Assembly (NCBI GenBank): GCA_944382905.1
Contig: CALWNU010000042.1
Span: 1-64,000 of the forward strand
Direction: 5' to 3'
Origin: an uncultured Clostridia bacterium
Lineage (GTDB): Bacteria > Bacillota > Clostridia > Oscillospirales > Ruminococcaceae
DNA: 64,000 nucleotides
Shown here: positions 42,417-57,025 of the stretch, one piece after another
Numbering within the stretch: the stretch's first letter is position 1
Layout: each line of letters opens with the position of its first letter
Translations under genes and position numbers: made by a program
The notes under the pieces: generated by a model
The model's database searches: none
What the model was told of the DNA's origin: nothing
Seen by the model: the letters and a program-made list of their open reading frames with translations, nothing else

Positions 42417-43666
42417 GAGTTGCAGTTGGGCCGTCCCGCTTGCAGGGCAAAATCGCCGCGCCGGCTTCCAAAAGCGTCGCCCACCGCGCTTTGATCTGCT
42501 CCGCGCTGGCGTCTGGCGCCAGTGAAGTGTTTCCTCTCGCTCCCTCCCAGGATATCCAAGCGACGGCGCAAGCGCTTCAGGCGATGGGCGCATCGATCCG
42601 TTGGGAGGATACCGTCATCCGGGTGACAGGCATCCGCGCCTGCCCGGAACAGGCGCAGATGGATTGCAAGGAGTCCGGTTCCACCCTACGGTTTCTCATC
42701 CCGGTAGCCGCAGCGCTGGGCATTTGCGCTTCTTTTACTGGCAGCGGACGCCTGCCGGAACGTCCGCTAGGCCCCTATCGCACTGCTTTTACATGGAAAG
42801 GTGTTTCCCTTGACAGTGATTTTCTTCCCCTGCATCTGCATGGCCGGTTGCAGCCAGGCTGTTACACCCTTCCCGGCGATATCAGTTCTCAATTTATCAC
42901 CGGTCTGCTGTTTGCGCTTCCGTTGCTCGACGGCGACAGCAGGATCCAGCTTTCTACGCCACTGGAATCGGCGCCTTATGTCGCTTTGACAATAGATGTG
43001 CTGCGCCAATGCGGCATTGTGGTCCACTGGACGGACAACACCATACAAATCCCGGGCAGGCAGCAGTATCAGCCTCGCCAATGGAAGGTGGAAGCGGATT
43101 ATTCTAACGCCGCCTTTTTCCTGGTGGCCGGTGCGCTGGGCAATGATGTAAAGCTTATTAACTTGCCAGATCATTCCCTGCAAGGCGACCAGGATATCTT
43201 GCGCATTTTGGATTTATTTGGCGCAGCTCCTGTCCGAAAAGACGGTGCGGTGTGGTTTCAGCAGCGCATCTGCCGTCCGGTACAGATCGACGCCAAACAC
43301 ATTCCCGATCTGGTGCCGATTCTCTGCGTCGCCGCCGCTGCTGCACCGGGAAAGACTGTCATTACTGGTACAAAGCGTTTAAAAATCAAAGAGAGCGATC
43401 GCGCTGGCGCCATGGTGGATTGTCTGACCCGCCTTGGCGCAGACATCCGGCAGGAACCGGACGCCCTCACCATTTGCGGAGGTCGTCCGCTACACGGCGC
43501 AGTGGTCTCTTCTTATTCAGACCACCGGATCGCCATGTCCATGGCCATTGCGTCCTGCCTTGCGGATTCTCCTGTGGTCATAGAGCAAGCGCAGGCGGTA
43601 GAAAAGTCTTATCCCAGGTTTTTCGAGGATTTCAAGGCATTAGGAGGAATCGTCCATGTCGTCTAA
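42413..43666 (+). CDS. aroA: 5-enolpyruvylshikimate-3-phosphate synthase
   Basis: A 417-residue EPSP synthase that joins PEP to shikimate-3-phosphate. Conserved elements: GKIAAPASKSVAHRALICSA, DCKESGSTLRFLIPVAAALG (the active-site loop that meets PEP), GDISSQFITGLLFALPLL, KESDRAGAMVDCLTRLGA, and the C-terminal SYSDHRIAMSMAIASCL. The start is the ATG inside the aroB ATGA overlap; the same frame is open far into aroB but has no EPSP synthase sequence there. Its last 11 bases overlap aroC. Confidence 0.96.
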   Translation: MRVAVGPSRLQGKIAAPASKSVAHRALICSALASGASEVFPLAPSQDIQATAQALQAMGASIRWEDTVIRVTGIRACPEQAQMDCKESGSTLRFLIPVAAALGICASFTGSGRLPERPLGPYRTAFTWKGVSLDSDFLPLHLHGRLQPGCYTLPGDISSQFITGLLFALPLLDGDSRIQLSTPLESAPYVALTIDVLRQCGIVVHWTDNTIQIPGRQQYQPRQWKVEADYSNAAFFLVAGALGNDVKLINLPDHSLQGDQDILRILDLFGAAPVRKDGAVWFQQRICRPVQIDAKHIPDLVPILCVAAAAAPGKTVITGTKRLKIKESDRAGAMVDCLTRLGADIRQEPDALTICGGRPLHGAVVSSYSDHRIAMSMAIASCLADSPVVIEQAQAVEKSYPRFFEDFKALGGIVHVV

Positions 43667-44741
43667 TTGGGGCAACCACATTAAACTTTCCATTTTCGGC
43701 GAATCCCACGGTCCGTCCATTGGCATGGTGCTGGACGGTCTGCCGGCGGGCGAGCCCATTGATATGGAGCAGCTGCGCGCGTTTATGGACCGGCGCCGCC
43801 CGGGGAAAAACCGGATGTCCACCCCCCGTTCGGAAACGGATGAGCCGCATATTTTGTCAGGAATCTATCGTAACCACACCACCGGCACCCCGTTGGCCAT
43901 CGAGATCTACAACCGCGATACCCATAGCAGCGATTATGCCCAGATGGATCACGTCGCCCGGCCAGGGCACGCAGATTACACTGGCCATTTGCGCTATTGC
44001 GGCGCGCAGGACCCCCGTGGCGGCGGGCATTTTTCCGGCCGATTAACCGCCCCTTTGACCGCCGCCGGCGGGATTGCCCTGCAGATTCTGGCGCGCCGTG
44101 GTGTTTCGGTAGGAGCGCACATTGCCTCTATTGGCCCATTGGAGGATCAGCTGTTCGACCCGGTCTCGCTGTCTGCGGCCATTTTGGCCAAGCCGGGGCA
44201 AAAAGCCTTCCCAGTTTTAGACGATTCGGCCGGGGAATCCATGCAGCAGCTCATTGAAACCTGCCGCGCGTCCCAAGATTCTGTAGGCGGCGTTGTGGAA
44301 TGCGGAATCACCGGTTTCCCGCCCGGAATTGGTTCTCCCATGTTCGACGGGCTGGAAAACCGTTTTGCGTCTTTGCTCTTCGGGATCCCTGCCGTCAAGG
44401 GGTTGGAGTTTGGGGCGGGATTTGATGCCGCACGGCATTTTGGCTCTCAAATGAACGATCCTTTTACCATTCAAAATTCCACCGTCCAAACCAAGACCAA
44501 CCACCATGGAGGAATCCTAGGCGGGATTTCTTCCGGTATGCCGATTCTCTTTCGGGTGGCGTTTAAACCGACCCCTTCTATCTCCCGGCAGCAGGAAACG
44601 GTGGATTTTCAAAAAATGGAGTCTGTGGTACTGTCGATTCGAGGCCGGCATGATCCTTGTATTGTCCCCCGGGCCGTCCCCTGTGTGGAAGCCGCAGCCG
44701 CATTGGCGCTGCTGGACGCCTGGATGGAAAAAACAAAATAA
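43656..44741 (+). CDS. aroC: Chorismate synthase
   Basis: A 361-residue enzyme that makes chorismate from EPSP using reduced FMN. The N-terminus has WGNHIKLSIFGESHGPSIG with the conserved His; RRRPGKNRMSTPRSETD, RPGHADYTGHLRYCG and DPRGGGHFSGRLTAPL follow, and FTIQNSTVQTKTNHHGGILG precedes the C-terminus. No flavin reductase domain is fused, so it is the type that relies on an external reductant. It overlaps aroA by 11 bases and is followed by a terminator. Confidence 0.96.
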   Translation: MSSNWGNHIKLSIFGESHGPSIGMVLDGLPAGEPIDMEQLRAFMDRRRPGKNRMSTPRSETDEPHILSGIYRNHTTGTPLAIEIYNRDTHSSDYAQMDHVARPGHADYTGHLRYCGAQDPRGGGHFSGRLTAPLTAAGGIALQILARRGVSVGAHIASIGPLEDQLFDPVSLSAAILAKPGQKAFPVLDDSAGESMQQLIETCRASQDSVGGVVECGITGFPPGIGSPMFDGLENRFASLLFGIPAVKGLEFGAGFDAARHFGSQMNDPFTIQNSTVQTKTNHHGGILGGISSGMPILFRVAFKPTPSISRQQETVDFQKMESVVLSIRGRHDPCIVPRAVPCVEAAAALALLDAWMEKTK

Positions 44742-44751
44742 AACCGGGTTT

Positions 44752-44790
44752 TCTGCCAGATAGATTTTCCTGTTCTGGCAGATTTTTTTT
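44752..44790 (+). terminator. Terminator of the aro operon
   Basis: 9-bp stem (44752-44760 with 44774-44782) and eight T, eleven bases after aroC. Confidence 0.88.
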
Positions 44791-44791
44791 C

Positions 44792-44821
44792 TTGTTTTTT
44801 TCACATGGGTTCCGATACAAT
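44792..44821 (+). promoter_or_regulatory. SigA-type promoter of the 86-residue gene
   Basis: TTGTTT, 18-base spacer, TACAAT, about 28 bases before the start at 44849. Confidence 0.5.
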
Positions 44822-44848
44822 GGAAGTATCCAGAAAGGAGGGATGTCA

Positions 44849-45109
44849 ATGCAGTGGATCAAAGAAATCCGCCAGCAATTACATACGGTCGGGCCATATG
44901 CGCAGAAGGTTGTCGCATTCGGTTTTTGGTGCGCCGTGATTCAATTCTCCATTGCGCTCATCTCTTACCGGATGGCCTTTTTCCTAGACTACCACCAGCA
45001 GATGCTGATTCACCGCACCGCGATGGAAGCCGCTCCTACTTGTTTTGTCTCCGGGCTGATTGCGGCTTTGATTTGGGACTTGGCCGAACGCTCTTATGGG
45101 AAACAATAG
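44849..45109 (+). CDS. Small two-segment membrane protein (unknown)
   Basis: An 86-residue protein starting MQWIKEIRQQLHTVGP, with two hydrophobic segments (about residues 23-45 and 65-78) joined by a loop containing DYHQQMLIHRTAMEAAP and a short tail (DLAERSYGKQ). The ATG at 44849 is seven bases after GGAGG; an ATG two codons earlier is too close. I do not recognise a family. It has its own promoter after the aro terminator and precedes the small beta-rich protein at 45214. Confidence 0.65.
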   Translation: MQWIKEIRQQLHTVGPYAQKVVAFGFWCAVIQFSIALISYRMAFFLDYHQQMLIHRTAMEAAPTCFVSGLIAALIWDLAERSYGKQ

Positions 45110-45213
45110 CCGGTACCCATCTGGTCTTTGTGACATATGATAAACAAACGAGGCTTTTTCCAGCCGCGCAGGAACCATCCCAACTTACCCAGCGTGGAGA
45201 ATGGAGCTATGTC

Positions 45214-45540
45214 ATGAAACCAAAGACTTCTCCCGGCCCTGCCGGTCCTGTGCTGCAATTACAGCATCCGGGTACTTATACGCTGACCTATCAAATGACC
45301 TTTCCTCCCATGCGCACGGTGGACGCCGCATTTTTCCTCCGCTGCAACGGCGCCGTTCTTGAGCGAACGACACGTCGTCTCCAGAAAAAAAGCGGCTATT
45401 CGTTAACCATGCAGGTCAATACCGTCTGCAATTTGCCGTGCTGCGCCAAAATCCAAATTGATGCGGTTCCCGCACAGGCGATTCATAACGCAACTCCTTC
45501 TTCTTTTCTGCTTTGCGCCAAAATGGAAGGAAAGGTATGA
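45214..45540 (+). CDS. Small beta-rich protein, possible jelly-roll fold
   Basis: A 108-residue protein. The core pattern, LQLQHPGTYTLTYQMTFPP followed by AAFFLRCNGAVLERT and SYSLTM-like strands ending in a SFLLCAKM strand, resembles C1q/TNF-like jelly-roll domains such as the C-terminal domain of BclA-type spore-surface proteins, which usually follow collagen repeats; no collagen repeat is present here. It has five Cys. The ATG at 45214 has GGAG eight bases upstream; the frame is open back to about 44854, and a GTG at 45130 is possible. The fold call is tentative. Confidence 0.5.
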   Translation: MKPKTSPGPAGPVLQLQHPGTYTLTYQMTFPPMRTVDAAFFLRCNGAVLERTTRRLQKKSGYSLTMQVNTVCNLPCCAKIQIDAVPAQAIHNATPSSFLLCAKMEGKV

Positions 45541-45770: not shown

Positions 45771-46112
45771 TTAGCGTGTAGAGAGGATCTTTACCAGCCG
45801 TTCGAACAATTTCATCGCCTCCTGCTGATCTTCTGGCGACAATTGTAAAAATGAATGCAAGGATGATAGGAAGCTTTTGGCGGTGTAGAGCTGGTTTACA
45901 TCATAATCGTCTGAGATTAAGCTCATCGGGGGGATTTCCAGCTTTTTGGCAATCTGCTGAATGGTTTCCAAAGTAGGGTTCGCTTTGCCAATCTCGATAT
46001 TTTGCAACGAGGTTCTGCTGATTTCCAGCTCCTCTGCAAATTCTGTCATGGAAGCACCGCTCAATTTCCGCAATATTTTCATTTTTAATTGCAGTATTTC
46101 ATTCATGTTCAT
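45771..46112 (-). CDS. Small XRE-family HTH regulator
   Basis: A 113-residue regulator. The helix-turn-helix is at about residues 10-64 (MTEFAEELEISRTSLQNIE, PTLETIQQIAKKLEI). The C-terminal part (SFLQLSPEDQQEAMKLFERL) looks like a short helical oligomerisation segment, as in SinR-like proteins. The ATG at 46112 has GGAGG eight bases upstream; an ATG five codons earlier lacks one. It lies alone between the two tRNA genes, with its own promoter, and its target is unknown. Confidence 0.85.
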   Translation of the reverse strand: MNMNEILQLKMKILRKLSGASMTEFAEELEISRTSLQNIEIGKANPTLETIQQIAKKLEIPPMSLISDDYDVNQLYTAKSFLSSLHSFLQLSPEDQQEAMKLFERLVKILSTR

Positions 46113-46138
46113 GCTCTCGTCCTCCATCCTTGTTTAAA

Positions 46139-46167
46139 ACTATACCATTTGTGGACGAGAACGCCAA
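46139..46167 (-). promoter_or_regulatory. SigA-type promoter of the small HTH gene
   Basis: Minus strand TTGGCG, 17-base spacer, TATAGT, about 27 bases before the start codon. Confidence 0.55.
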
Positions 46168-46279
46168 AGACAGGATAATGATAAACCATACTAAAATAAT
46201 GTTTAAATTGGATAAGATTGGAAATTAAATTTGTATTTTTTCTTTCCGCTTTTTATTCCTTTGTTTTTAAAATTTGCGC

Positions 46280-46308
46280 TTGACAAATATTGCAATATTG
46301 GATATAAT
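46280..46308 (+). promoter_or_regulatory. Strong SigA-type promoter of tRNA-Ser
   Basis: Perfect TTGACA and TATAAT with a 17-base spacer, 26 bases before the tRNA. Confidence 0.9.
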
Positions 46309-46334
46309 AAACAGGCGTTCTAAAGTGAAAAAAT

Positions 46335-46427
46335 GGAGAAGTCGCCTAGCCCGGTTTATGGCGCACGACTGGAACTCGTGTATGGGTTAATAGCTCATCG
46401 AGGGTTCGAATCCCTCCTTCTCCGCCA
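46335..46427 (+). tRNA. tRNA-Ser (anticodon GGA)
   Basis: Class II tRNA with acceptor GGAGAAG paired with CTTCTCC, discriminator G, and encoded CCA at 46425-46427. The anticodon loop CTGGAAC gives GGA, which reads UCC and UCU. A long variable arm (GTATGGGTTAATAGCTCATC) is typical of tRNA-Ser. Own promoter and terminator. Confidence 0.96.
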
Positions 46428-46467
46428 AAAAGAGACAAACTTGTTTTAGAGTTTGTCTCTTTTTTTA
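46428..46467 (+). terminator. Terminator after tRNA-Ser
   Basis: Long A/T-rich stem AAGAGACAAAC with GTTTGTCTCTT around a loop of about ten bases, followed by T7. Confidence 0.9.
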
Positions 46468-46518
46468 TCCTCAAATAGGTGAAAAATAGAGCAATGGATA
46501 CCATTACCAACTTGGAAC

Positions 46519-46677
46519 ATGTATCTTCTATTTCTCCTGGAAGACAACAGCAATGTCCTGCTGTGGGTTGCCCTACTGTTTGTATCGAGCGGTATACTCA
46601 GAGCAGTAACATACAGCAAGAAAAAAAACAGGCAAAGTAACTCATTTACGGAAATACTCCAATTAAACAGGATGTAA
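46519..46677 (+). pseudogene. Decayed 3' end of a sortase-anchored protein gene
   Basis: A 52-codon frame beginning at an ATG without a ribosome binding site. Its translation has LEDNSNVLLWVALLFVSSG, a hydrophobic stretch, then a basic SKKKNRQ. This matches the C-terminal sorting signal of many Firmicutes surface proteins (an S/LPxTG-type motif, then GDNSN, membrane segment, Lys-rich tail). Just upstream the other frame reads TCTCCTGGA, as if an SP-x-T-G motif had been shortened and shifted. I read the stretch as a gene remnant. The rest of 46468-46757 shows no other gene. Confidence 0.4.
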
Positions 46678-46757
46678 TGTATAAGTGAGTAGGTTGCACC
46701 AGAAAATATTAGATTATCCTATTACAACATCAGAGAAAAGCAAAAGATTTTTATAAG

Positions 46758-46793
46758 CAAAAAGCAGGAACGACGAAGCCGTTCCTGCTTTTT
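46758..46793 (-). terminator. Terminator of the redox/MATE cassette
   Basis: 13-bp stem AAAAGCAGGAACG with CGTTCCTGCTTTT, six-base loop, T run on the minus strand, 26 bases after the aldo/keto reductase stop. Confidence 0.9.
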
Positions 46794-46819
46794 ACAATTT
46801 TTATGTGACTTGCTGTTGG

Positions 46820-47971
46820 TTATTGACGTCTGAAAATTTTTTGCGCCTTTTTCATGTTTTCTCGTACCTTAACACCGAACGGACAGTTTGGCTCGCACCG
46901 GCCACACATCAGGCAATCGTCTGCCGTGGCTGAAAGCGCCCAATAATGCTGCGCGACTGTTTCCGGCACAGTGTCCTGCTGTGTTGCTAAATCTAAAAAT
47001 TTGGTTACAGCTGCAATATCGATATGTGCGGGGCAGGGTTGGCAGTGGTTGCAGTACATGCAGCGCCCGGTCATATGAATGGCATTCCCGCCGCTGAAAA
47101 TGTGGGCATAGCTGCGTTCTTCATCGGACACTTGATAGTATTTTACCGCTTCCAGCACTTCTTCTACAGTATGACAACCGACGATCACGACTTTTACTCC
47201 GTTGCGGTCCAGACAATATTGAATACACTGGGGCACCGTCATAGCCACACCAAAGGGAGAACTCTCCGCTTTTAGCAGTGTACCGGCACCTAAGGGCTTC
47301 ATAACGGTAATCGCTACGCCTTTGGCTTCACAGGCGGAATATAGCTTCTGACGTACCTCATCCACGACCAGACCGCTCTTTTCCATCCCCTTAAATTCCA
47401 TCAGATCGTTAATATCTGTGTCGGCTTCCTCCATATCGTAGGCGGGATTGATGCTGAACATTAGAACGTCGATCCAACCGCTCTCCACAGCTTTCAGGGC
47501 AATGTGGGGATTATGGGAACTCATGCCGATATGCCGGATAACGCGCTTCTCCTTCAGTTCCTTTGCGTATTCCAGAACAGATCCTTCAAAAACAGTCTGG
47601 AAATCCTCTTCACTGTCAATGTAATGGATCATACCAACATCAATATAATCGGTATGCAGACGTTCTAGAAGATCGGCAAAGGAGCGTTTTGTCTTTTCTA
47701 TATCACGGGTACGGGTATATTGGCCATCCTCATAGATGGTGCAGAGATGTCCCTGGATAATAAATTGATTCCGGCGGCCCCGTAAGGCGACACCGAGGTT
47801 ATCACGGGTGGGGGCCTGCGGCATAAAGATGTCGATGTAGTTGATCCCATGCTCCTGTGCCGCATCAACGATTGCGATGCTTTCTTCGGCAGTCAGACCG
47901 TTGAACCACTCACCACCTAGTCCGATTTCGCTGACTTTTAATCCGGTTCTTCCCAATGTTCTGTATTTCAT
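46820..47971 (-). CDS. Aldo/keto reductase with C-terminal 4Fe-4S domain
   Basis: A 383-residue protein. Residues about 1-280 form the aldo/keto reductase barrel (LGRTGLKVSEIGLGGEW, IDVGMIHYIDSEEDF, IRHIGMSSHNPHIALKAVES, VMKPLGAGTLL). The C-terminal part carries two ferredoxin-like Cys sets, CMYCNHCQPCP and CLMCGRCEPNCPFG. In the place of the usual catalytic Tyr region the sequence is IDIFMPQAPTRDN, as in other iron-sulfur members. Substrate is unknown. ATG follows AAGGAGG. It is the last gene of the HxlR/MATE cassette and appears intact. Confidence 0.9.
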   Translation of the reverse strand: MKYRTLGRTGLKVSEIGLGGEWFNGLTAEESIAIVDAAQEHGINYIDIFMPQAPTRDNLGVALRGRRNQFIIQGHLCTIYEDGQYTRTRDIEKTKRSFADLLERLHTDYIDVGMIHYIDSEEDFQTVFEGSVLEYAKELKEKRVIRHIGMSSHNPHIALKAVESGWIDVLMFSINPAYDMEEADTDINDLMEFKGMEKSGLVVDEVRQKLYSACEAKGVAITVMKPLGAGTLLKAESSPFGVAMTVPQCIQYCLDRNGVKVVIVGCHTVEEVLEAVKYYQVSDEERSYAHIFSGGNAIHMTGRCMYCNHCQPCPAHIDIAAVTKFLDLATQQDTVPETVAQHYWALSATADDCLMCGRCEPNCPFGVKVRENMKKAQKIFRRQ

Positions 47972-48050
47972 AAGACCCTGGTCCTCCTTTTTATTATTTC
48001 AAAAAACGCCGTAGCAGATCCATAAAATCCACTGCGGTAATCCGTCCGCT

Positions 48051-48440
48051 TTAGTCTTCCTGCTTCGTTTTTGCAATCACGATTTCACGGACGCAGACAT
48101 TCTGCGGCATCTGATAAGCAAACCAGGCGCAGTCTGCAATTTTGGAAGACTCCAGCCCGCCCTCAATGCTCTGCTTCCAAAGATTGTAGTTGTCCTTGAT
48201 TTCCTGATTGGAGGTATGGGAGAGAAGCGGTGTCTCCACAATTTCTTTGATAGCGGCCTGCATAGCGGAAAGGTCGGTGACATCCACACTGCGGCACAGG
48301 CAGTTGGGCAGATTCAGCTCCTCCATCACTTCTTTTCTTCTGGCCAGCATAAGGACAGGATGCCCTTCGCTGGAAAAACGCTTGGCAAACTCCATACCAA
48401 TTCCGGAACTTGCGCCGGTAACAACAACTAATTTTTTCAT
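48051..48440 (-). pseudogene. Short-chain dehydrogenase with internal deletion
   Basis: A 129-residue in-frame product of an SDR gene that should code for about 240 residues. The N-terminal half is normal (VVVTGASSGIGMEFAKRF, then DVTDLSAM), and the C-terminal part is normal (PLLSHTSNQEIKDNYNLWK, QNVCVREIVIAKTKQED), but between residue 68 and 70 (near 48233) about 110 residues are missing. The lost part holds the NNAG motif, the catalytic Ser and the YxxxK motif, so the product cannot be an active reductase. The ribosome binding site (GGAGG, seven bases before ATG 48440) is intact. Confidence 0.8.
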
Positions 48441-48454
48441 CATAATACCTCCTT

Positions 48455-49003
48455 TCAATTCTGGTTTGTAATGGTATCACAAGCCTCTTTCAGCTGATTG
48501 AGTACGCCATCCTGCGTCATCAGTTCGCCCGGCTCATATGCGGAGAAGGACAGTGAAAATGCTAAATGCCAATGAAGAAATTCTGCGATACAGCGGAATT
48601 AATCGTGGATCAGACGGTACTGCGGATTTTCCATATTATTGGCACCGACTACTATAACGCCGATCTTTTTCCCCATGGTTTTGAACTGGGAATCCTGGGA
48701 ATAGAACTTGTCCACAACCATTTTCAGTTGTGCAGACATTCCCCACCAGTAAACCGGCGTGCCGAAAATGACAGCATCAGCCTGTACGATTTTTTGAATC
48801 ACTGCATCGGATTCGTCCTGACAAACACAATGTCCTCCATTCCTCTTACATCCATCACAGGCACAGCAGCCGCTGAGCTTCAAAGTACTGACATCCAGAA
48901 CTTCAACTGTGTTCCCGTCCTCCAGAATGGTTTTCATCGTTTGGAGAGCCGCACGGGTGTTGCCATGATATCTTGGACTTCCGTTCAGAATGAAAATATT
49001 CAT
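48455..49003 (-). pseudogene. Flavodoxin-family FMN reductase with nonsense codon
   Basis: An NADPH-dependent FMN reductase/flavodoxin-like gene. The open part (48599-49003) has the FMN-binding start ILNGSPRYHGNTRAAL, a Cys-rich loop (CCACDGCKRNGGHC) and FGTPVYWWGMSAQLK. It stops at TAA (48601-48599) after NPQYRLIHD, yet the same frame goes on for 47 codons to a TGA at 48455 with family-like sequence (FRCIAEFLHWHLAFSLSFSA, YEPGEL). The simplest reading is one CAA-to-TAA change. Full length would be about 182 residues. It abuts the MATE stop and ends 14 bases before the broken SDR gene. Confidence 0.8.
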
Positions 49004-49006
49004 CAC

Positions 49007-50365
49007 TCAGCTTTCCTTTCTGTTCATATTAATTTGATTCATCCAATTCACTTGCTTATAGTAAAAGAAAAACACAATCGAGCTGAGCCCCCATGTTAAC
49101 GGATAGACCACGTATACCATTTGAATGGCATGGGTCAATGGTATGCTAACTGCAAGAAATGCAACCCGGATCACACACCAGAAAACCATCATAATAATCA
49201 TGGGCACAACCGCTTTTCCGGCTCCACGGAGTATGGCGGCAACAGAGTGGGAATAAGCCAACAGAAAATAAAACAGTGCGGCTGTTCTGGCTTTTTCTAC
49301 CCCAAAACGGATTACCTCCGGTGTGGAATCAAATGCGGCTATCAGCTGCGGAGCCAATAAGAATACCAGAATTCCGATCAATTCAGCCAAAATGACCGTT
49401 GCCAAAATTCCAAACCGTGCGCCTCTTTTTGTCCGATCTGCCTGCCCTGCACCGAGATTTTGTCCTACAAATGTCGTAATGGCCATGGTAAAGCTGTTGA
49501 TCGGCAAAAAAGCAAAGCCTTCAATTTTGCTGTAAGCTCCATAACCCGCCATTGCCATTTCACCAAAGGCGTTAATGTACGACTGTACCACAACATTTGC
49601 AAACGCTATGATGGAGTTTTGTACTCCGGAGGGAAGTCCAACGCATATGATCTGTCCCAGCATTTTGGCATCAAACCGGATTTTTGTGATTTGAAGCTTG
49701 TAGCTGTCATTTGTCCGAAGCAGCTGAATAAAACATAAAATTGCGCTGAATCCCTGTGAAATCACAGTAGCCAACGCCGCTCCACCAACGCCTGCGTGGA
49801 AAACCTCGATAAATAAGATATCCAGTACAAGATTGATTACCGAGGAAATCATCAGATAATACAACGGATGGCGGCTGTCTCCAACCGCTTGCAGAATACC
49901 TACAAAGATGTTGTACATGACAAAGCCAAGGGAACCGGAAAAATAAATCTGCAAGTATGTAATCGATTCCGGCATGACGCTTTCCGGCGTCCCCATCCAT
50001 ATCAGGATCTGTGGGGATAATAAAACGCCTGCTGCAGTCATCAACACTCCGGCAACAAGACCGAAGGCAACTGTCGTATGAACTGCACGGTGAACACCAT
50101 TTTTATCTTTGGCCCCGAAATATCTGGACACAATAACTCCGGCACCAGAGGAAATGCCACTTAAGAAACCAATCAGCATAAAAATCAGACTACCAGATGA
50201 ACTGACTGCAGCCAACGCACTGCTTCCTAGAAAATTACCCACAATCAGGGAGTCGACCGTATTGTACAGCTGCTGAAACAAGTTTCCCAGCAAGAGCGGC
50301 AAAGCAAAGAAAATCATACGTTTCGAAATCGAACCGCTCGTCATCGGTTCGATCTTTTTTTCCAT
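49007..50365 (-). CDS. MATE-family multidrug/cation efflux transporter
   Basis: A 452-residue membrane protein with about twelve hydrophobic segments in two repeats. The MATE marks are KRMIFFALPLLLGNLFQQLY, VDSLIVGNFLGSSALAAVS, and the second-half GLPSGVQNSIIAFANVVVQS and FVGQNLGAGQADRTKRGARF. MATE proteins export cationic drugs and metabolites using Na+ or H+ gradients; the substrate is unknown. It is first gene of the minus-strand cassette and divergent from hxlR, whose product probably controls it. ATG follows GGGAGG. It appears intact, unlike two of its downstream neighbours. Confidence 0.93.
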   Translation of the reverse strand: MEKKIEPMTSGSISKRMIFFALPLLLGNLFQQLYNTVDSLIVGNFLGSSALAAVSSSGSLIFMLIGFLSGISSGAGVIVSRYFGAKDKNGVHRAVHTTVAFGLVAGVLMTAAGVLLSPQILIWMGTPESVMPESITYLQIYFSGSLGFVMYNIFVGILQAVGDSRHPLYYLMISSVINLVLDILFIEVFHAGVGGAALATVISQGFSAILCFIQLLRTNDSYKLQITKIRFDAKMLGQIICVGLPSGVQNSIIAFANVVVQSYINAFGEMAMAGYGAYSKIEGFAFLPINSFTMAITTFVGQNLGAGQADRTKRGARFGILATVILAELIGILVFLLAPQLIAAFDSTPEVIRFGVEKARTAALFYFLLAYSHSVAAILRGAGKAVVPMIIMMVFWCVIRVAFLAVSIPLTHAIQMVYVVYPLTWGLSSIVFFFYYKQVNWMNQINMNRKES

Positions 50366-50402
50366 GGAATTCCTCCCAAAAATTCAAATTGTAATATTGC
50401 AT

Positions 50403-50420
50403 TATCGTAAAAAAACGATA
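50403..50420. promoter_or_regulatory. Inverted repeat, candidate HxlR operator
   Basis: TATCGT and ACGATA arms separated by six A, placed just downstream of the -10 of the MATE promoter, where a bound repressor would block transcription. Operator function is inferred from position only. Confidence 0.45.
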
Positions 50421-50427
50421 TACTTGT

Positions 50428-50456
50428 ATTGTATTCTTTTTTGAGATTTATAACAA
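50428..50456 (-). promoter_or_regulatory. SigA-type promoter of the MATE cassette
   Basis: Minus strand TTGTTA, 17-base spacer, TACAAT, about 63 bases before the MATE start codon and in the gap shared with hxlR. Confidence 0.65.
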
Positions 50457-50511
50457 GTACGCACATTATTTTTAGAAAGTAAAAAAGTTTTCACTATGAA
50501 GGTGGGATACA

Positions 50512-50877
50512 ATGGAAAAAATTATGGTAACCTGTGAGATGGAAGTAACATTAAAGATGATTGGCGGGAAATGCAAACCACTTATTTTAGATAGCTTAAT
50601 CCGTAACGGCACACAGAGGTTCAGCGAATTGATGAGGGAGGTCACCCAAGTTTCTCAAAGAACTCTCACAAACCAGCTTCGTGAACTGGAAACCGACGGC
50701 TTAATTGTCCGTACTGTATTTGCGGAAGTTCCGCCACGGGTAGAATATTCTATTACTCCAAAGGGGAAGTCTTTGGAACACATTTTGGAACTTATGTGTG
50801 AGTGGGGCGAAAAGAATATCGACGACCGGTTCGTTATGACAAATCCGCAATGTTCCGATTGTGAAGATCAACTGTAA
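50512..50877 (+). CDS. HxlR-type winged-helix regulator
   Basis: A 121-residue regulator of the HxlR/MarR-like group. The winged helix covers about residues 12-95 (FSELMREVTQVSQRTLTNQL, PPRVEYSITPKGKSL). A conserved N-terminal Cys (Cys8) precedes the fold, and Cys21 replaces the usual Trp in the GGKxKPLIL motif. Several HxlR proteins (for example YodB) sense electrophiles through Cys; the same here is inference. It is divergent from the MATE cassette. A CSDCEDQL tail adds two more Cys. ATG follows AAGGTGGG. Confidence 0.92.
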   Translation: MEKIMVTCEMEVTLKMIGGKCKPLILDSLIRNGTQRFSELMREVTQVSQRTLTNQLRELETDGLIVRTVFAEVPPRVEYSITPKGKSLEHILELMCEWGEKNIDDRFVMTNPQCSDCEDQL

Positions 50878-51047
50878 TGAAACACCATTGAAATCTGAAC
50901 CCTCTCGTTCAATTTCAGATATTCTCCAAAGTGCCGTTTACCGGTGTTGTCCACCCTGTCCTTTGCAGTTGTCTTATCTCGTGCGAGGGTGCAACTCCAT
51001 CAGCCAAAATCGCAAATATATCTTTTTTATAGCCCTTAGACAAAAAG

Positions 51048-51082
51048 AGACCTGGAGCCGATTGTGTTCCAGGTCTTTTTTA
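51048..51082. terminator. Bidirectional terminator
   Basis: 9-bp stem AGACCTGGA with TCCAGGTCT (51048-51056, 51068-51076), with T-rich flanks on both strands, between the convergent hxlR and yqfD genes. The stretch 50878-51047 holds nothing else I can identify. Confidence 0.85.
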
Positions 51083-51144
51083 TTTTGCTTTTCATGAAAT
51101 TTGTCCAATCTACTTTAAACAGCAGGCGGTCTTTCCCAGCGCCG

Positions 51145-52329
51145 TTATCGATCCAGCAGAATTTCCTGCTCCTTGCCGATTTCCATTTTGCACAGATACG
51201 ACGCTTTCAATGTATAAATGCCGTCTTTTTGCGAAACGGAAAGCTCCTTTTCTAAAATTTCCGCATCTTGCAGCTGCGCCTCCTCCTGTTTTTGCAGCAA
51301 GGCCAACGCTTCTTCTTTCGCCTGTACCTCTTGATAGGTCACCAGTTCCGTCGTATAATAGGCGCGCGTTTCTTCTACCAGGGCGAAAGGAGTAGACAGA
51401 CCGAACGGCGCAAATGGAACTGTTGTTTGTTGAGAATCATATGACACCTGTTGGTCCCGGTCCCAGAACAAGGGAATCTTCCAGGTGAGAATTTTGAGAT
51501 ATTTTTTTTGAACAACCTCCCCGGTCGGAACACGCTTTTCCTGCTGCATGGGCACCTGCACTTCGATTTCATAATCCGTATACGCCTGGATATCCGCCCT
51601 GGCATGCACAAATCGCGTTTGGCCTTTTCCGTCCTCGATCACGCCGCTCACAATCAGGTCTCCTGCCAAAACAGTGTCTCCGACCTTCAGGTCGCTTTGT
51701 CCGTCATACACATCCATCGAGCAAATCTGTCCGGTATATTTTGCCACGATATTACATGCTTTATCGTCGTCTAAGTACATATCGGGCGCCAGAACCCGCT
51801 CATTGACTTCTACCGTTACCGTGCTCCCGGTGATATTCACCGCAATCCACGAAAGCTCTTTTAATTCCAGCAGCGTTTTCCGCTCCAGTTCCCGCGCATC
51901 CAAGGAATGTTTGAACGCGCCGACTTTTAGCCCCTGTTCCGCCAGATAATCGAGGATTGCATCGGAAGAAACCAGCTCGTTTCCCACTACGTCGATGGTC
52001 CAGACAAAATTGCCCAACAACCCCAAAATCCCCAAAAAGACGACCACCCCCGCCGCCAGTCCGACTCTACGGCGGTATTTTTTTTTCCACATAGGCCAGC
52101 CGAAACGCTTTTCAATCCGCATCTGGACGCCGGTCTTTTTGGCGAATGGGCGCAGCTTTTTGTAATGGCGCATGAGCGTATATCCGGTGTACTGCGTCTG
52201 TGTCTTGACGCCGCCCCACAAATTGACGCCGCCGCGAGACACCAAATTTAAAAATCGCTCAATGAAAACGCCTGTGACGCGAAATCGGACATAACCGCAA
52301 ACAAAACGCAAAAAACGAACGATAAACAT
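51145..52329 (-). CDS. yqfD: Sporulation protein YqfD
   Basis: A 394-residue membrane protein of the YqfD family (stage IV sporulation, mother-cell expressed). The N-terminal cytoplasmic part has FLNLVSRGGVNLW and the basic WKKKYRRRVGL; one membrane segment follows (about 87-110, VVVFLGILGLLGNFVWTI), and the outer part has the VVGNELVSSDAILDYLAE and SWIAVNITGSTVTVEVNER pattern. It lies downstream of yqfC as in Bacillus; phoH, which usually follows, is not here, and the accessory cassette begins instead. ATG at 52329 follows GGAGAAG. Confidence 0.94.
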   Translation of the reverse strand: MFIVRFLRFVCGYVRFRVTGVFIERFLNLVSRGGVNLWGGVKTQTQYTGYTLMRHYKKLRPFAKKTGVQMRIEKRFGWPMWKKKYRRRVGLAAGVVVFLGILGLLGNFVWTIDVVGNELVSSDAILDYLAEQGLKVGAFKHSLDARELERKTLLELKELSWIAVNITGSTVTVEVNERVLAPDMYLDDDKACNIVAKYTGQICSMDVYDGQSDLKVGDTVLAGDLIVSGVIEDGKGQTRFVHARADIQAYTDYEIEVQVPMQQEKRVPTGEVVQKKYLKILTWKIPLFWDRDQQVSYDSQQTTVPFAPFGLSTPFALVEETRAYYTTELVTYQEVQAKEEALALLQKQEEAQLQDAEILEKELSVSQKDGIYTLKASYLCKMEIGKEQEILLDR

Positions 52330-52342
52330 AATCTTCTCCTGA

Positions 52343-52633
52343 TTACTCTAAAAATTCTACTGAAAAAATCCGTCCGTCAATGATGACATTTTCTCCCGTC
52401 ATGCATTTAATCTGCAAATCCTTTCCTGTAAATTTCACCATCTGTCTGCCCAACTTCAATTTTATAAAATCATCCTCGTATTCCACTACGCCCTGACACC
52501 CGTCCAGCACGGCTTCCCGGCTGCCGGAAAGAACAATCTGGGAATAAGAGTCGAACATGTTTCCCGGAACATCCAAAATTTTCGCCAGTGCCTGTGGAGA
52601 AGACTGCCGGCTTTTTTTCTCTTTCCGTTTCAT
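52343..52633 (-). CDS. yqfC: YabP/YqfC-family sporulation protein
   Basis: A 96-residue soluble protein of the YabP/YqfC family. The characteristic core is QIVLSGSREAVLDGCQGVVE followed by the strand-rich LKLGRQMVKFTGKDLQIK and a short C-terminal GRIFSVEFLE. The N-terminus is basic (KRKEKKSRQ). It sits 13 bases upstream of yqfD and behind a SigE-like promoter, consistent with mother-cell expression during sporulation. Start ATG follows GGGGAGGAG. Confidence 0.94.
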   Translation of the reverse strand: MKRKEKKSRQSSPQALAKILDVPGNMFDSYSQIVLSGSREAVLDGCQGVVEYEDDFIKLKLGRQMVKFTGKDLQIKCMTGENVIIDGRIFSVEFLE

Positions 52634-52665
52634 CCTTTCAGCTCCTCCCCATTAAAACCTGTTCC

Positions 52666-52694
52666 ACTATATGTTTTTGCGGGAACTGATATAC
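52666..52694 (-). promoter_or_regulatory. SigE-like promoter of yqfCD
   Basis: Minus strand GTATATC, 14-base spacer, CATATAGT, close to the SigE consensus (ATATT-type -35, CATACAnT -10). It lies about 30 bases before yqfC, matching its known sporulation timing in relatives. Confidence 0.55.
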
Positions 52695-52748
52695 ATTTTC
52701 TGGCAGACAGGTTTATAAAATATAGGGAAAAGAAAGGCGGTGGATCCG

Positions 52749-53822
52749 ATGATTTTCTCTTGGGCAAAAAAAGTGCAGCGCCTGGTTTCCCTTTTCGCTT
52801 TTCTCTCCCTGGCGGTTTGTCTGCTGGTTTATTCGGATGTGGTCCGGCGAGGCGTCGTATCCGGCCTGCAAACCTGCGCGACGGTACTAATCCCTTCCCT
52901 ATTTCCCTTTATGGTTCTCTCCGGCGTGCTGGGGGAAAGCCGAACGGCCCGCACCATGCAATCCCTGCTTTCTCCGATCATGCGCTATGGATTTCACCTC
53001 CCCCCGTTTACGGCCTGTACCGTGTGCATGGGATGGATCGGCGGATATCCAGTAGGAGCCAAAATGATTGCCTCGCTACTAGAGCAGGGCCGAATTGGCC
53101 AGGCAACGGCAAAACGCCTGCTGGCTTTTTGCGTCAATGCCGGGCCATCCTTTTTAATCTGTGCTGTCGGCGCCGGATTTTTGGGCAACGCAAAGGCCGG
53201 AATCCTGCTGCTGTGTTGCCAGCTGGCATCGTCTTGGATCATCGGCGTACTGCTCGGGATATGGCACCGGCGGGACCCCATTGAACCGGATGAGGCAAAA
53301 GAGCCGCCTTTGCCCTTTTCCCACGCATTGGTGCATGGGGTGCAAAGCGGCATCAACGGGATGCTTTCGGTCATCGGATACGTCCTTTTGTTCTCTGCAG
53401 GGATTGAACTGCTGTCCTATTTTTTTGCTGACCGCTGCCCTGGCATTTTTCTTCTTACCGGATTGCTGGAAGTAACCACCGGATGCCTACAGGCGGCAAA
53501 ACAATCGAACCTGGTATTGATCGGGTTTCTGGTCTCTTTTTCCGGTTTGTCGGTAATCTTCCAGGTATTGTCATTTTTCAAAGGAATGCCCGGCCTGTTT
53601 TGGCCTTTGCTTTGCTCCAGGCTAGCGCACGGGGTGCTCACCGCCTGCCTGGTCCGTTTGGGAATGGTTTTATTTCCGCAGACGGCTGCAGTTTTTGCCA
53701 GCGCTTCTCAGCCGCTGGTCCCGCAGCTTTCCGCAACGCCGGCCGTGTCGATTCTGCTGGCTGTTTTATGCGGCGTTTTCTTGTTTTCCCTGTTCCCGCG
53801 TAATTTCCGCAGATTGGATTAG
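52749..53822 (+). CDS. ylbJ: Sporulation integral membrane protein YlbJ
   Basis: A 357-residue membrane protein of the nucleoside-recognition (Gate) family, YlbJ branch, with eight or more hydrophobic segments. Key motifs are TVLIPSLFPFMVLSGVLG in the first half, GWIGGYPVGAKMIA, and GLLEVTTGCLQAAK in the second. In Bacillus ylbJ is needed for resistant spores, but its transported compound is unknown. The ATG at 52749 is preceded by AAGGCGG; a GTG three codons earlier is possible. It is divergent from yqfC. Confidence 0.92.
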   Translation: MIFSWAKKVQRLVSLFAFLSLAVCLLVYSDVVRRGVVSGLQTCATVLIPSLFPFMVLSGVLGESRTARTMQSLLSPIMRYGFHLPPFTACTVCMGWIGGYPVGAKMIASLLEQGRIGQATAKRLLAFCVNAGPSFLICAVGAGFLGNAKAGILLLCCQLASSWIIGVLLGIWHRRDPIEPDEAKEPPLPFSHALVHGVQSGINGMLSVIGYVLLFSAGIELLSYFFADRCPGIFLLTGLLEVTTGCLQAAKQSNLVLIGFLVSFSGLSVIFQVLSFFKGMPGLFWPLLCSRLAHGVLTACLVRLGMVLFPQTAAVFASASQPLVPQLSATPAVSILLAVLCGVFLFSLFPRNFRRLD

Positions 53823-53878
53823 ATTTTTTTTTCCGCATTTGTTATAATGAATAAAATGACGAATTGGGAGAGGTTTTT

Positions 53879-54091
53879 ATGCGCAAAATGCTTTTCGACC
53901 AACAGATTGCTCCCGCCTGTCAATATTGCAGCCGCGGATCTCTCAGTGCAGACGGGAAAAGTATTCTATGCCCGCACAAAGGCGTGGTGACAGGCGAGTA
54001 CTTTTGCCGGAAATTTCGATATGATCCGCTCAAACGGGTTCCAAAAAAACCTGTCCGACAAGTATTTCAAAAGGAAGATTTTTCCCTTTAA
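53879..54091 (+). CDS. Cys4 mini protein (zinc-ribbon-like, unknown)
   Basis: A 70-residue protein starting MRKMLFDQQIAPACQYC behind GGAGAGG. Four Cys in the order CxxC...CPHKG...YFCRKF could form a small zinc-binding fold; the C-terminus is basic (PLKRVPKKPVRQVF). I do not recognise a named family, although the pattern suggests a conserved clostridial small protein. It lies after ylbJ with a TATAAT at about 53843-53848 upstream, and before the amidase gene. Confidence 0.65.
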   Translation: MRKMLFDQQIAPACQYCSRGSLSADGKSILCPHKGVVTGEYFCRKFRYDPLKRVPKKPVRQVFQKEDFSL

Positions 54092-54116
54092 CCTATCGCC
54101 AAAACAGGAGGCCTCT

Positions 54117-56870
54117 ATGGAAAAAAGAATGCGTCAATGGACCCTTTCTGCGCTTGCTGCTGTTGTAGCATCCGCGTCACTTTGGTCCGCTGCGGCAAAT
54201 CCGCCCCAGACTGATTCCGAACAAGCCCCGACTGCTGGAGGGTTGTTTTTTTCGGCGTTATCTGGGACCGATTCTGCCGAACAGATCGATAATCTGTTGG
54301 ATTTTGCCGGGAAATGTGGATTGAACCGGATCTATTTCTCCTGTCAAAAATCATCGGCGCAAGACGGCGCGTCTTTGCCCTCCTTTTCCATTGCCTCGAT
54401 GGATGAAACCATGCAAAACCTCACGAAGCTGGCAGCCGAAATGGAACAGACCGATCTGTACCTTTCTTTGGTGCTGGATCCGTTTGTCTTAGATCATACG
54501 CATCCTGCGTATCCGTACGTGCGCCGGATTACCCAGTTGGGCGGATCGATCGCCGTTTGGAAAGACGGGGTCTTATACCTGGACCCGACCATCCCGCAAA
54601 ACCAGCAGCTCGCGCAGTGGGAATTGCAAAAATGGCTGGCCGCCGGCAGCCGAACCGATGAACTGGTTGTGAAAAGCACGGCGTTTTTGTGCCATTCCGG
54701 CGACGGACAGGCCAACGACCAAGTTTCCCAAGCGCAGCGGATGGCGTCCTTTTTTGAGGAAATCAGCGGCAGCGGCGTTTCCATTTCCGTGCTGTATGAT
54801 CTACCTTCCTCGCCGTATCAAAGCAGCTTACAATGGATGCATATGCCCGGCCTTTCCCCGCAGACGCTGGCGGAAAATCAGCTGGCGAATACGGTGTATC
54901 CCGCGGCACAAACCAATTGGGAATCCTATGAAGCCCAAATGGAAACCTGGCCGGAAACCTTTGCCGGATTATCGGTATCTCCCTTTTTTGGCCAGGCCGC
55001 CGTTTCGGAAGATCATGCGGCCTTTGCCATCAGCAGCATGATTTTTTCCGCCCGTCAAGCGGGGATCACCTCTTTTGCGGTGGACGGATATGAGCAGCTG
55101 GCCGCCGGCGGAACAGAGGACGCAGTTTTGCTTTGCGCAGCGTTGTCCAGCGACCTTGCCATCATTCCCGACGGATATTCTTTGGAAGTCCCCCAAACCT
55201 TTTCCGTCACCCGTCCCAGCGGCGATATTGCCATCTCTTCCTCCTCCTATTATGTGATGGGCACTTCAAACCCGGATCTGCCTTTATACCTGGATGGCGA
55301 ACCCATCCAGCGCCAAACGTCCAACGGCGGGTTTGGCGTGTATCTGACCGACATTCCCATCGGCACCAGCACCTACACCTTTTCTCAGGGATCCCAGAAA
55401 AAAACGATTTTCATTACCCGGATGGATCCTGACGAAAGTGAAATCACGTTGCTGTCGAATATCGTGCAAAACTCCATGTACCCGTCCTATGACGAGGCGG
55501 TGAAAGTCGGAGAAGACATTTCCCTTCGATGCACCGCGCCGGCGGGCGCCAGTGTTTATGCCACCTTCCAGGGGAAAACCGTGCAATTGCGGCAGGTGGC
55601 GGTGGCGCAGGAGGGCGTACCGGCTACCTATACGGGAACGATGAGCATGCCGGCAGTAGGCAGCGAAGACGAGACTACCCAGGTCGGATCGGTGACCTAC
55701 ACGCTGGAATATCAAAGCTCGACTACCACCTACTCCTCCAGCGGAGAATTGTATGCCGTTGGGGAAAACGCATCTTTGGCGGTGATGGCAAACGATTATA
55801 TCAATAACGTGTACGGCGACGTTTCCATCGAAGATGATTTTTATATGACGCTTTACAACGGTGCGTGCGACTATGTGGAGGAAATCACCGACAATTACTA
55901 TAAGCTTCGTTCCGGCGGGTATTTGCCCAAATCCACTGCGGAGATTCTTACCGGCAGCCCGGTCGTGGACAATCAGGTTTCCGCCGTGGACTTCTCCGTT
56001 TCCGAACGCGGGGAAACACTGACCTTATCCGGAACGGCAAAAGCACCCTACCGCGCCCAGATGAATGATTCCTGCCTTACGGTAACGCTTTGGAATACGA
56101 CAGGGATCCCTTCGTCGATCCAGGCGGAAAATTCCACCTTGTTCCGGCAGATTTCCTCTGTGGAAAACGAGGACGGCTCGGTTACGCTGACGTTGGATTA
56201 TCAGGATAACGGGGCGCTCTGGGGGTATAATGTAGAGTATGACGGCGATCAGATTGTGATTTTTGCGAAAAAAGCGCCGCAACTTTCCGGCGACAGCCAG
56301 CACCCGTTGGAAGGGGTTGTCGTAGTGCTGGATGCAGGGCACGGCGGCGAGGATCCAGGCGCGTTGGGCGTTGCCGGGACAAACGGGCCGACGGAAAAGG
56401 ATCTCAATTTTATTTCCGCCTATGCAACCAAACAGGTGCTGGAATCCCTGGGAGCCACAGTACATATGGTTTCGGAAGAGAATGCAAGGCTGAGTTTTGA
56501 AGAGCGGATGGATCCTGCCAGAAGCTTACGGGCGGACTTTTTCCTGTCCTTCCACCACAACAGCACCAGCGAATCGGCAAACAGCGGCAGCTCGTTCGGG
56601 ACGGAAGTCTATTACCATGAAGAGCAGTCCCGGGTTTTTGCGGAATATGTCCTTGCCGGCATTACCGCTGCAACCGGCCGCGATGCCCGCGGCGCCTACC
56701 AGGATTATTACCGGGTGACCCGCATGACCTACGCTCCTTCTCTGCTGCTGGAGCTTGGGTTTGTCGTCAACCCAGAGGAATATGAGGACCTGTGCCGGCC
56801 GGACCGCATCTTCCAAACGGCGCTGGGCGTAGCGAAAGCTATGGTGCAGACCATTGAGGATTTTCAATAA
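54117..56870 (+). CDS. Secreted N-acetylmuramoyl-L-alanine amidase, multidomain
   Basis: A 917-residue exported protein. A signal peptide (KRMRQWTLSALAAVVASASL) is followed by a barrel-like region (about 35-330, with GLFFSALSGTDSAEQIDNLL and LNRIYFSCQ) resembling glycosyl-hydrolase-like GHL10 domains, then beta-sandwich linker domains (about 330-730), and a C-terminal Amidase_3 domain (about 730-915). Zinc and catalytic residues are in VVVLDAGHGGEDPGA, the Glu of GPTEKDLNF, FFLSFHHNST and SLLLELGFVVN. It should cut the amide bond between muramic acid and the peptide. The ATG is six bases after AGGAGG. Alternative: the first domain may only bind glycans. Confidence 0.88.
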   Translation: MEKRMRQWTLSALAAVVASASLWSAAANPPQTDSEQAPTAGGLFFSALSGTDSAEQIDNLLDFAGKCGLNRIYFSCQKSSAQDGASLPSFSIASMDETMQNLTKLAAEMEQTDLYLSLVLDPFVLDHTHPAYPYVRRITQLGGSIAVWKDGVLYLDPTIPQNQQLAQWELQKWLAAGSRTDELVVKSTAFLCHSGDGQANDQVSQAQRMASFFEEISGSGVSISVLYDLPSSPYQSSLQWMHMPGLSPQTLAENQLANTVYPAAQTNWESYEAQMETWPETFAGLSVSPFFGQAAVSEDHAAFAISSMIFSARQAGITSFAVDGYEQLAAGGTEDAVLLCAALSSDLAIIPDGYSLEVPQTFSVTRPSGDIAISSSSYYVMGTSNPDLPLYLDGEPIQRQTSNGGFGVYLTDIPIGTSTYTFSQGSQKKTIFITRMDPDESEITLLSNIVQNSMYPSYDEAVKVGEDISLRCTAPAGASVYATFQGKTVQLRQVAVAQEGVPATYTGTMSMPAVGSEDETTQVGSVTYTLEYQSSTTTYSSSGELYAVGENASLAVMANDYINNVYGDVSIEDDFYMTLYNGACDYVEEITDNYYKLRSGGYLPKSTAEILTGSPVVDNQVSAVDFSVSERGETLTLSGTAKAPYRAQMNDSCLTVTLWNTTGIPSSIQAENSTLFRQISSVENEDGSVTLTLDYQDNGALWGYNVEYDGDQIVIFAKKAPQLSGDSQHPLEGVVVVLDAGHGGEDPGALGVAGTNGPTEKDLNFISAYATKQVLESLGATVHMVSEENARLSFEERMDPARSLRADFFLSFHHNSTSESANSGSSFGTEVYYHEEQSRVFAEYVLAGITAATGRDARGAYQDYYRVTRMTYAPSLLLELGFVVNPEEYEDLCRPDRIFQTALGVAKAMVQTIEDFQ

Positions 56871-56898
56871 AGCTTGCATACGGCAATCGCTCTGACAA

Positions 56899-56931
56899 AA
56901 GGTTTTCCCCTTTGTGGGAAAACCTTTTTCT
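56899..56931 (+). terminator. Terminator after the amidase gene
   Basis: 11-bp stem AAGGTTTTCCC with GGGAAAACCTT and a T run. Confidence 0.88.
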
Positions 56932-56956
56932 TCCGCCGGAAGATTGGAGGATTCTA

Positions 56957-56985
56957 TTGACGTTTCCCTTGGAGCAGGATATAAT
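56957..56985 (+). promoter_or_regulatory. SigA-type promoter of uvrBA
   Basis: TTGACG, 17-base spacer, perfect TATAAT, about 40 bases before uvrB. A LexA box was looked for and not seen clearly. Confidence 0.8.
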
Positions 56986-57025
56986 GAGAAAGAACATTCG
57001 TTCCTATTGATTTGGGAGGTGCAGC

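Follow-up and report, generated by a model that had tools for sequence, protein, structure and literature searches.

How did a compact efflux and redox unit come to carry both intact and broken genes, and what does that mixture say about its use? Within the 64-kb stretch of DNA analysed here (the window), a divergent HxlR regulator gene is followed by genes for a MATE transporter, an FMN reductase of flavodoxin fold (hereafter flavodoxin), an SDR and an iron-sulfur-type AKR, and the whole lies between tRNA-Ser and yqfD. An earlier note on this DNA took the damage to the two middle genes as a sign that selection is relaxed on the redox steps but kept on efflux. Comparison with related loci makes a modest case for something else, a mobile, regulator-bearing detoxification cassette with recent and haphazard damage, and artefacts of draft assembly are the main doubt. 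At a probability of roughly 0.6, we read the locus as a detoxification cassette that was acquired by horizontal transfer, regulates itself and is in early decay; it would be controlled by a thiol- or electrophile-sensing HxlR protein and equipped for efflux.

Layout and identity of the genes

All five genes were found where the earlier note had placed them (Table 1), and profile searches bore out its family assignments (HxlR, MatE, FMN_red, adh_short and Aldo_ket_red, the last with a weak additional Fer4_8 match). The MATE and flavodoxin genes are separated by 3 bases. The MATE protein is full length, with residues 23-407 covering positions 1-384 of the 396 in the TIGR00797 profile, and is 94% identical in amino acids to the copy at locus L059 and 93% to that of genome G348; the AKR is 95% identical to both over its full length. 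When the AKR is aligned with 1ynp, the Asp and His of what we take to be the Asp-Tyr-Lys-His tetrad are retained, the Tyr is replaced by Met and the Lys by His, leaving the classical tetrad incomplete. Absence of the classical Tyr and Lys is usual in iron-sulfur AKRs. Two CxxCxxC-type motifs are visible at the C-terminus, where Fer4_8 scores 21.2 bits, below its cut-off of 27.

Table 1. Features of the unit and of its tRNA neighbour in the window
Feature	Position	Strand	State or remark	Support
tRNA-Ser(GGA), neighbour	46335-46427	+	orientation relative to yqfD opposite to that in same-genus G001 and G002	
Terminator-like hairpin (intrinsic type), operon end	46758-46819	-	46759-46793 matches its own reverse complement	
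Aldo/keto reductase (AKR)	46820-47971	-	intact; C-terminal 4Fe-4S-type cysteine motifs	PF00248, 76.7 bits
SDR (adh_short family)	48051-48443 (frame given also to 48458)	-	330-bp in-frame internal deletion; catalytic block missing	sequence alignments
NADPH-dependent FMN reductase/flavodoxin-fold gene	48459-49003	-	stop at codon 135	PF03358, 83 bits
MATE efflux transporter	49007-50365	-	intact	TIGR00797, 222.4 bits (cut-off 147.4)
Divergent promoter region	50366-50511	.	inverted repeat GTGAA-N6-TTYAC at 50479-50494	12-copy alignment
HxlR (MarR/DUF24) regulator	50512-50877	+	intact; N-terminal Cys8	PF01638, 102.6 bits (cut-off 20.8)

Related copies and their gene content

The MATE protein picked out 62 loci in a scan of the genome collection, and mapping of the proteins onto loci revealed 12 distinct ones in which an HxlR gene lies divergently beside members of the set. 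(Rows L003-L005, L134, L143 and L145 were dropped, L134 being apparently the same contig as L057 and L003 apparently the same as L074, as were L111 and L112, which fall below 50% identity.) In six of these loci all five genes are recognizable in the order HxlR<>MATE-FLAV-SDR-AKR: the window, L055, L059, L102 (its AKR cut by the contig end), L132 (genome G122) and L133 (genome G348). The identical gene order in five further genomes upholds the earlier proposal that these genes form a coherent unit. The other six loci hold partial sets, namely MATE-FLAV-SDR in L057, MATE-SDR in L054, MATE with a flavodoxin fragment in L051, MATE-AKR in L093 (Negativibacillus massiliensis), MATE in L077 and AKR only in L135 (genome G016).

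A sixth gene, overlooked in the earlier note, lies beyond HxlR in L059, L055, L133 and L102 and encodes a VOC/glyoxalase protein (PF00903); in L102 it is matched in two pieces in different frames, and neither the window nor L132 gave a match.

Searching with the flavodoxin through 394 sampled genomes of the order gave 30 at E <= 1e-20, and cassette copies are present in the window genome and three others among them (G122, G348 and G284). In a sample of 391 genomes from the class, the window genome and G122 were the only ones with cassette DNA, apart from G031 with a match to MATE alone, so the cassette is rare. Three plasmid and three phage records gave only short matches to the regulator gene or matches to the MATE region (64-76% identity), and among the viral contigs searched no relative of the cassette was confirmed.

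Evidence for horizontal transfer

The cassette of the window resembles that of another family more closely than its host genes resemble those of its own genus. Against G348, which belongs to another family, MATE, AKR and HxlR are 93%, 95% and 96% identical with dS of 0.57, 0.78 and 1.19, whereas the host proteins AroC and YqfD are 57% (dS 2.26) and 31% (dS saturated) identical; AroC and YqfD are 77-78% identical to their same-genus counterparts, at dS values that run from 1.36 to saturation. Judged by MATE and AKR, the ancestor of the cassette is more recent than that of the genus; the HxlR dS of 1.19 lies only slightly under the lowest same-genus host value (1.36, AroC against G004) and by itself would not show this. 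The cassette region has single matches of 115, 56 and 156 bases in three of four same-genus genomes and none in the fourth, and this near-absence, together with the contrast in dS (0.57-1.19 for the cassette between families, 1.36 to saturated for host genes within the genus), supports the earlier suggestion that the unit is accessory DNA and shows that it was transferred.

Base composition also speaks for transfer. GC content is 0.36-0.50 over 46000-51000, compared with 0.50-0.59 over 41500-45500 and 0.48-0.56 over 52500-58000, and is 0.45-0.51 over 51000-52500, which is mostly yqfD. Similarity between the window and the other copies stops at the end of HxlR on one side and at the operon terminator on the other (the L059 alignment reaches 46758 and that of L055 reaches 46765); the VOC-bearing copies are alike further. 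Recombinase fragments occur near the L059 and L055 copies, and the eight window proteins scanned near the cassette included no integrase. The best reading of these data is that the cassette moves between gut Clostridia.

The site of the unit

In the same-genus genomes G001 and G002, the tRNA-Ser block and the DNA upstream of it lie downstream of yqfD, at about 100 and 760 bases from it, in an orientation opposite to that of the window, and both contigs end inside tRNA-Ser. In G004, the DNA that comes after aroC and tRNA-Gly does not match the window, and its long frames appear, by eye, to be proA- and proB-like. Because the tRNA-Ser block is inverted in G001 and G002 and the G004 DNA is unmatched, the window locus looks like a rearranged junction, though one that carries no att repeat; the tRNA-Ser gene may instead mark a misjoin.

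The earlier note had also seen in the neighbouring tRNA-Ser gene and gene remnant a common site for accessory DNA. The adjacency to tRNA-Ser is real, and the link to it as such a site is weak: the 64-kb window, searched at up to 3 mismatches, does not contain the tRNA-Ser 3′ end a second time, and ARAGORN found no tRNA-Ser in the available DNA beside the five other five-gene loci (L055 has a tRNA-Arg). Integration of a tRNA-targeted element at a tRNA-Ser attachment site was rejected on the lack of a duplicated tRNA 3′ end. An Rfam search returned two tRNAs only. The remnant, at about 46480-46640, looks by eye like the C-terminus of a surface protein; it gave no Pfam hit at E 0.001 and no significant non-self match in its own and four same-genus genomes (best other E 0.125).

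Two further elements lie close by. A Cro/C1-type HTH gene (45771-46127; HTH_3, 47 bits) stands alone between tRNA-Gly and tRNA-Ser and has no DNA match in the aligned same-genus stretches (L137-L140). In the gap between HxlR and yqfD, 64 bases (50982-51045) match G028 (78%) and partly G005 (87% over 39 bases), and are possibly a short sequence dispersed in the order.

A conserved regulator and intergenic region

The inverted repeat GTGAA-N6-TTCAC is present in 11 of the 12 aligned intergenic regions, and the window copy differs from it at one half-site base. A second conserved block, GTGCGTACTTGT, carries 1-2 differences in L077, L093 and L135 and overlaps -35/-10-like hexamers for MATE, as read by eye. 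Regulator and repeat are conserved across all 12 loci despite differing payload. In L093 (HxlR<>MATE-AKR) and in G016, where the regulator faces AKR alone and both repeat and block are retained, the same regulator family member accompanies a reduced payload, with no flavodoxin or SDR found beside it. A wider regulon read from the inverted repeat was rejected, as the pattern occurs at three sites in the genome including its own (1 forward, 3 reverse; 4 and 3 for the reversed-pattern control); the perfect genomic match falls inside a long coding frame.

The closest solved structure to the window regulator is B. subtilis HxlR (E 4.6e-27; 98 bits, compared with 51 for YodB). Cys8 is found in 11 of the 12 regulator copies, the window included, and is Ser in L057; Cys96 and Cys114 are found in all 12. 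The formaldehyde response of B. subtilis HxlR needs a Lys two residues after the Cys (PMC7835342). The sensing Cys is common to both proteins, but Met takes the place of this Lys in the window and the 11 other copies. Formaldehyde sensing through a Cys-x-Lys motif was accordingly rejected, the sequence being Cys-Glu-Met in 11 copies and Ser-Glu-Met in one.

Proposed function

The B. subtilis YodB, CatR and HypR regulons (azoR1, yodC, catDE, hypO) likewise join an HxlR/DUF24 regulator bearing an N-terminal Cys to a flavin-dependent reductase. They share with the fuller cassette copies a VOC-type enzyme, CatE, which we take to be of this fold. Unlike in these regulons, the genes described here sit together with MATE, SDR and AKR in a single transferable cassette. 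Solved relatives of the FMN reductase include azoreductases and a quinone reductase. HypR, YodB and CatR use an N-terminal Cys to sense HOCl, quinones and diamide (PMC6943732). Because of the regulator Cys, this published DUF24 sensing and the azoreductase and quinone-reductase kin of the FMN reductase, we infer that detoxification of electrophiles or quinones is the likeliest role. Points against the preferred reading as a whole include the Ser at position 8 in L057, the half-site difference in the window repeat, the closeness of the HxlR dS (1.19) to the lowest same-genus host value (1.36), and the draft or MAG status of several of the genomes.

A working scheme can be proposed from these parts. 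The HxlR/DUF24 regulator would bind the inverted repeat, a putative operator, in the divergent promoter, and modification of its N-terminal Cys by an electrophile or oxidant (a quinone, a carbonyl or a disulfide-forming compound) would switch on the MATE operon. Enzymatic conversion of the reactive compound would follow, by the FMN reductase, SDR and AKR, joined by the VOC protein in fuller copies, and the MATE pump would export that compound or its products. In the window genome the regulator, pump and AKR remain, VOC is absent, and the flavodoxin and SDR have most likely lost their activity; the cassette would be eroding recently and haphazardly, losing different genes in different hosts.

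That the cassette serves mainly to export drugs or bile acids, with the enzymes as accessories, is a rival that we hold to be doubtful, though it has the position of the pump in its favour: MATE adjoins the HxlR regulator in 11 of the 12 HxlR-linked loci, and MATE relatives occur in many loci without the rest of the set. Against it, AKR is the only payload gene beside this regulator and its intergenic repeat at the G016 locus, and the cassette enzymes belong to families that include detoxifying members. A broader idea, which we put forward only tentatively, is that HxlR and its intergenic DNA are a transferable chassis whose payloads are exchanged among gut Clostridia, costly payload genes breaking independently and recently by microhomology-free deletions while the regulator stays intact. 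The payloads seen are AKR, MATE-AKR, MATE-SDR, MATE-FLAV-SDR and the full six genes.

No paper on a cassette with this gene set and regulator class was found by title or abstract start in the open-licence literature. Should the preferred reading of a self-regulated detoxification cassette hold, gut Clostridia would have a named mobile cassette for stress resistance, and its operator and inducer class could be tested.

Lesions across the copies

As the earlier note had recognized, both middle genes of the window are damaged. The flavodoxin stop (48599-48601) is in frame, and the frame stays open beyond it to the length of the other copies; the window gene thus falls short of the 183 codons of open frame in the five other five-gene copies. 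Measured against any of the seven other SDR-bearing copies in the alignment, the SDR gene has lost 330 bp (110 codons) without a shift of frame; the junction lies near 48241-48244, and the open frame that is left encodes 130 residues instead of 239-240. The lost stretch holds the NAG, Asn, Ser and YxxxK motifs; in a protein alignment, the catalytic Asn, Ser and YxxxK deleted from the window are present in L059, L102, L054 and L057.

Damage in the sister copies falls elsewhere. With the whole copies L059 and G348 as reference, MATE lacks 341 bp in L102 and 626 bp in L132, and L055 has lost 75 bp of MATE in frame and 287 bp of AKR; L054 is without the flavodoxin gene (553 bp), and L051 is without most of it, with no SDR or AKR found there. 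At least one gene is clearly broken in four of the six five-gene copies (none in L059 and L133), and no lesion is common to any two copies. At six measured junctions the flanks share 0 or 1 base, a count made against related, not identical, sequence that could hide a few bases. By a 90%-length criterion, under which the in-frame loss in L055 does not count, MATE is broken in 2 of 6 five-gene copies and in 1 of 56 comparison genes (Fisher's test, p = 0.023, with ascertainment bias possible). The comparison genes are those of L051-L110 minus L055, L059, L102 and the edge-cut L108, and still include five HxlR-linked loci (L051, L054, L057, L077 and L093).

The main rival for the lesions, in our judgement an unlikely one, is that the real cassettes are intact and the lesions come from assembly errors or strain mixture in draft genomes, which were probably assembled from metagenomes. 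The window genome (52 contigs, 88.5% complete) and G122 are drafts, L055 and L102 are MAG records, each copy's lesion is unique, and aroC of G122 also carries an internal stop. The 0-1 bp shared at the six junctions would, however, be shorter than any k-mer by which a graph assembler joins sequence, and only one of the 56 comparison MATE genes is broken although many come from MAGs. We favour real lesions, which would have arisen after transfer. The aroC match of G122 (L129, G122:C81:207-1286) contains one in-frame TAA, and for this reason the quality of that assembly, or of the gene, is doubtful.

Patterns of substitution bear on the earlier proposal that the redox enzymes are under relaxed selection and efflux is kept. 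In the window MATE, AKR and HxlR are open and both middle genes are broken, as it would expect, and the SDR remnant shows a weak excess of private replacement changes (replacement to silent 4:8 versus 5:54 in other lineages, which were counted over the whole gene; p = 0.039, uncorrected), at most a hint that this gene has been free of constraint for some time. But AKR, itself a redox enzyme, is open in the window, and the ratios for flavodoxin (10:9 versus 25:27 in five other lineages, p = 0.79), MATE (16:45 versus 38:87, p = 0.61) and AKR (13:43 versus 21:61, p = 0.84) reveal no such pattern; each of the four operon genes also has a low pairwise dN/dS between five-gene copies (0.008-0.165). 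Because flavodoxin shows no replacement excess and SDR a weak one, the window lesions seem to be recent and are a poor guide to selection in the long term. Elsewhere the broken gene is MATE itself (L102 and L132, with the in-frame loss in L055), and flavodoxin and SDR frames are open in sister copies where MATE (L102, L132, L055) or AKR (L055) is damaged. Because the damage in four of six copies falls in different genes, MATE included, the proposal is unsupported, and we regard it as very improbable. The pattern of broken genes in one genome can mislead; sister copies show damage to efflux and redox genes alike.

That the SDR (130 aa) and flavodoxin (134 aa) still function in their shortened form as mini-proteins is scarcely credible: the SDR deletion keeps the reading frame and the truncated flavodoxin is modelled at moderate confidence with its first four core strands (pLDDT 72.3), but the SDR catalytic stretch is gone, its AlphaFold model is poor (mean pLDDT 55.5, residues 70-130 below 50; both models used five input sequences and are weak evidence), and neither short form occurs in any other copy.

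Beside the damaged copy in L055, a D-Ala-D-Ala dipeptidase-like frame (Peptidase_M15; L055:7573-8409) has a weak phage-integrase match at its end.
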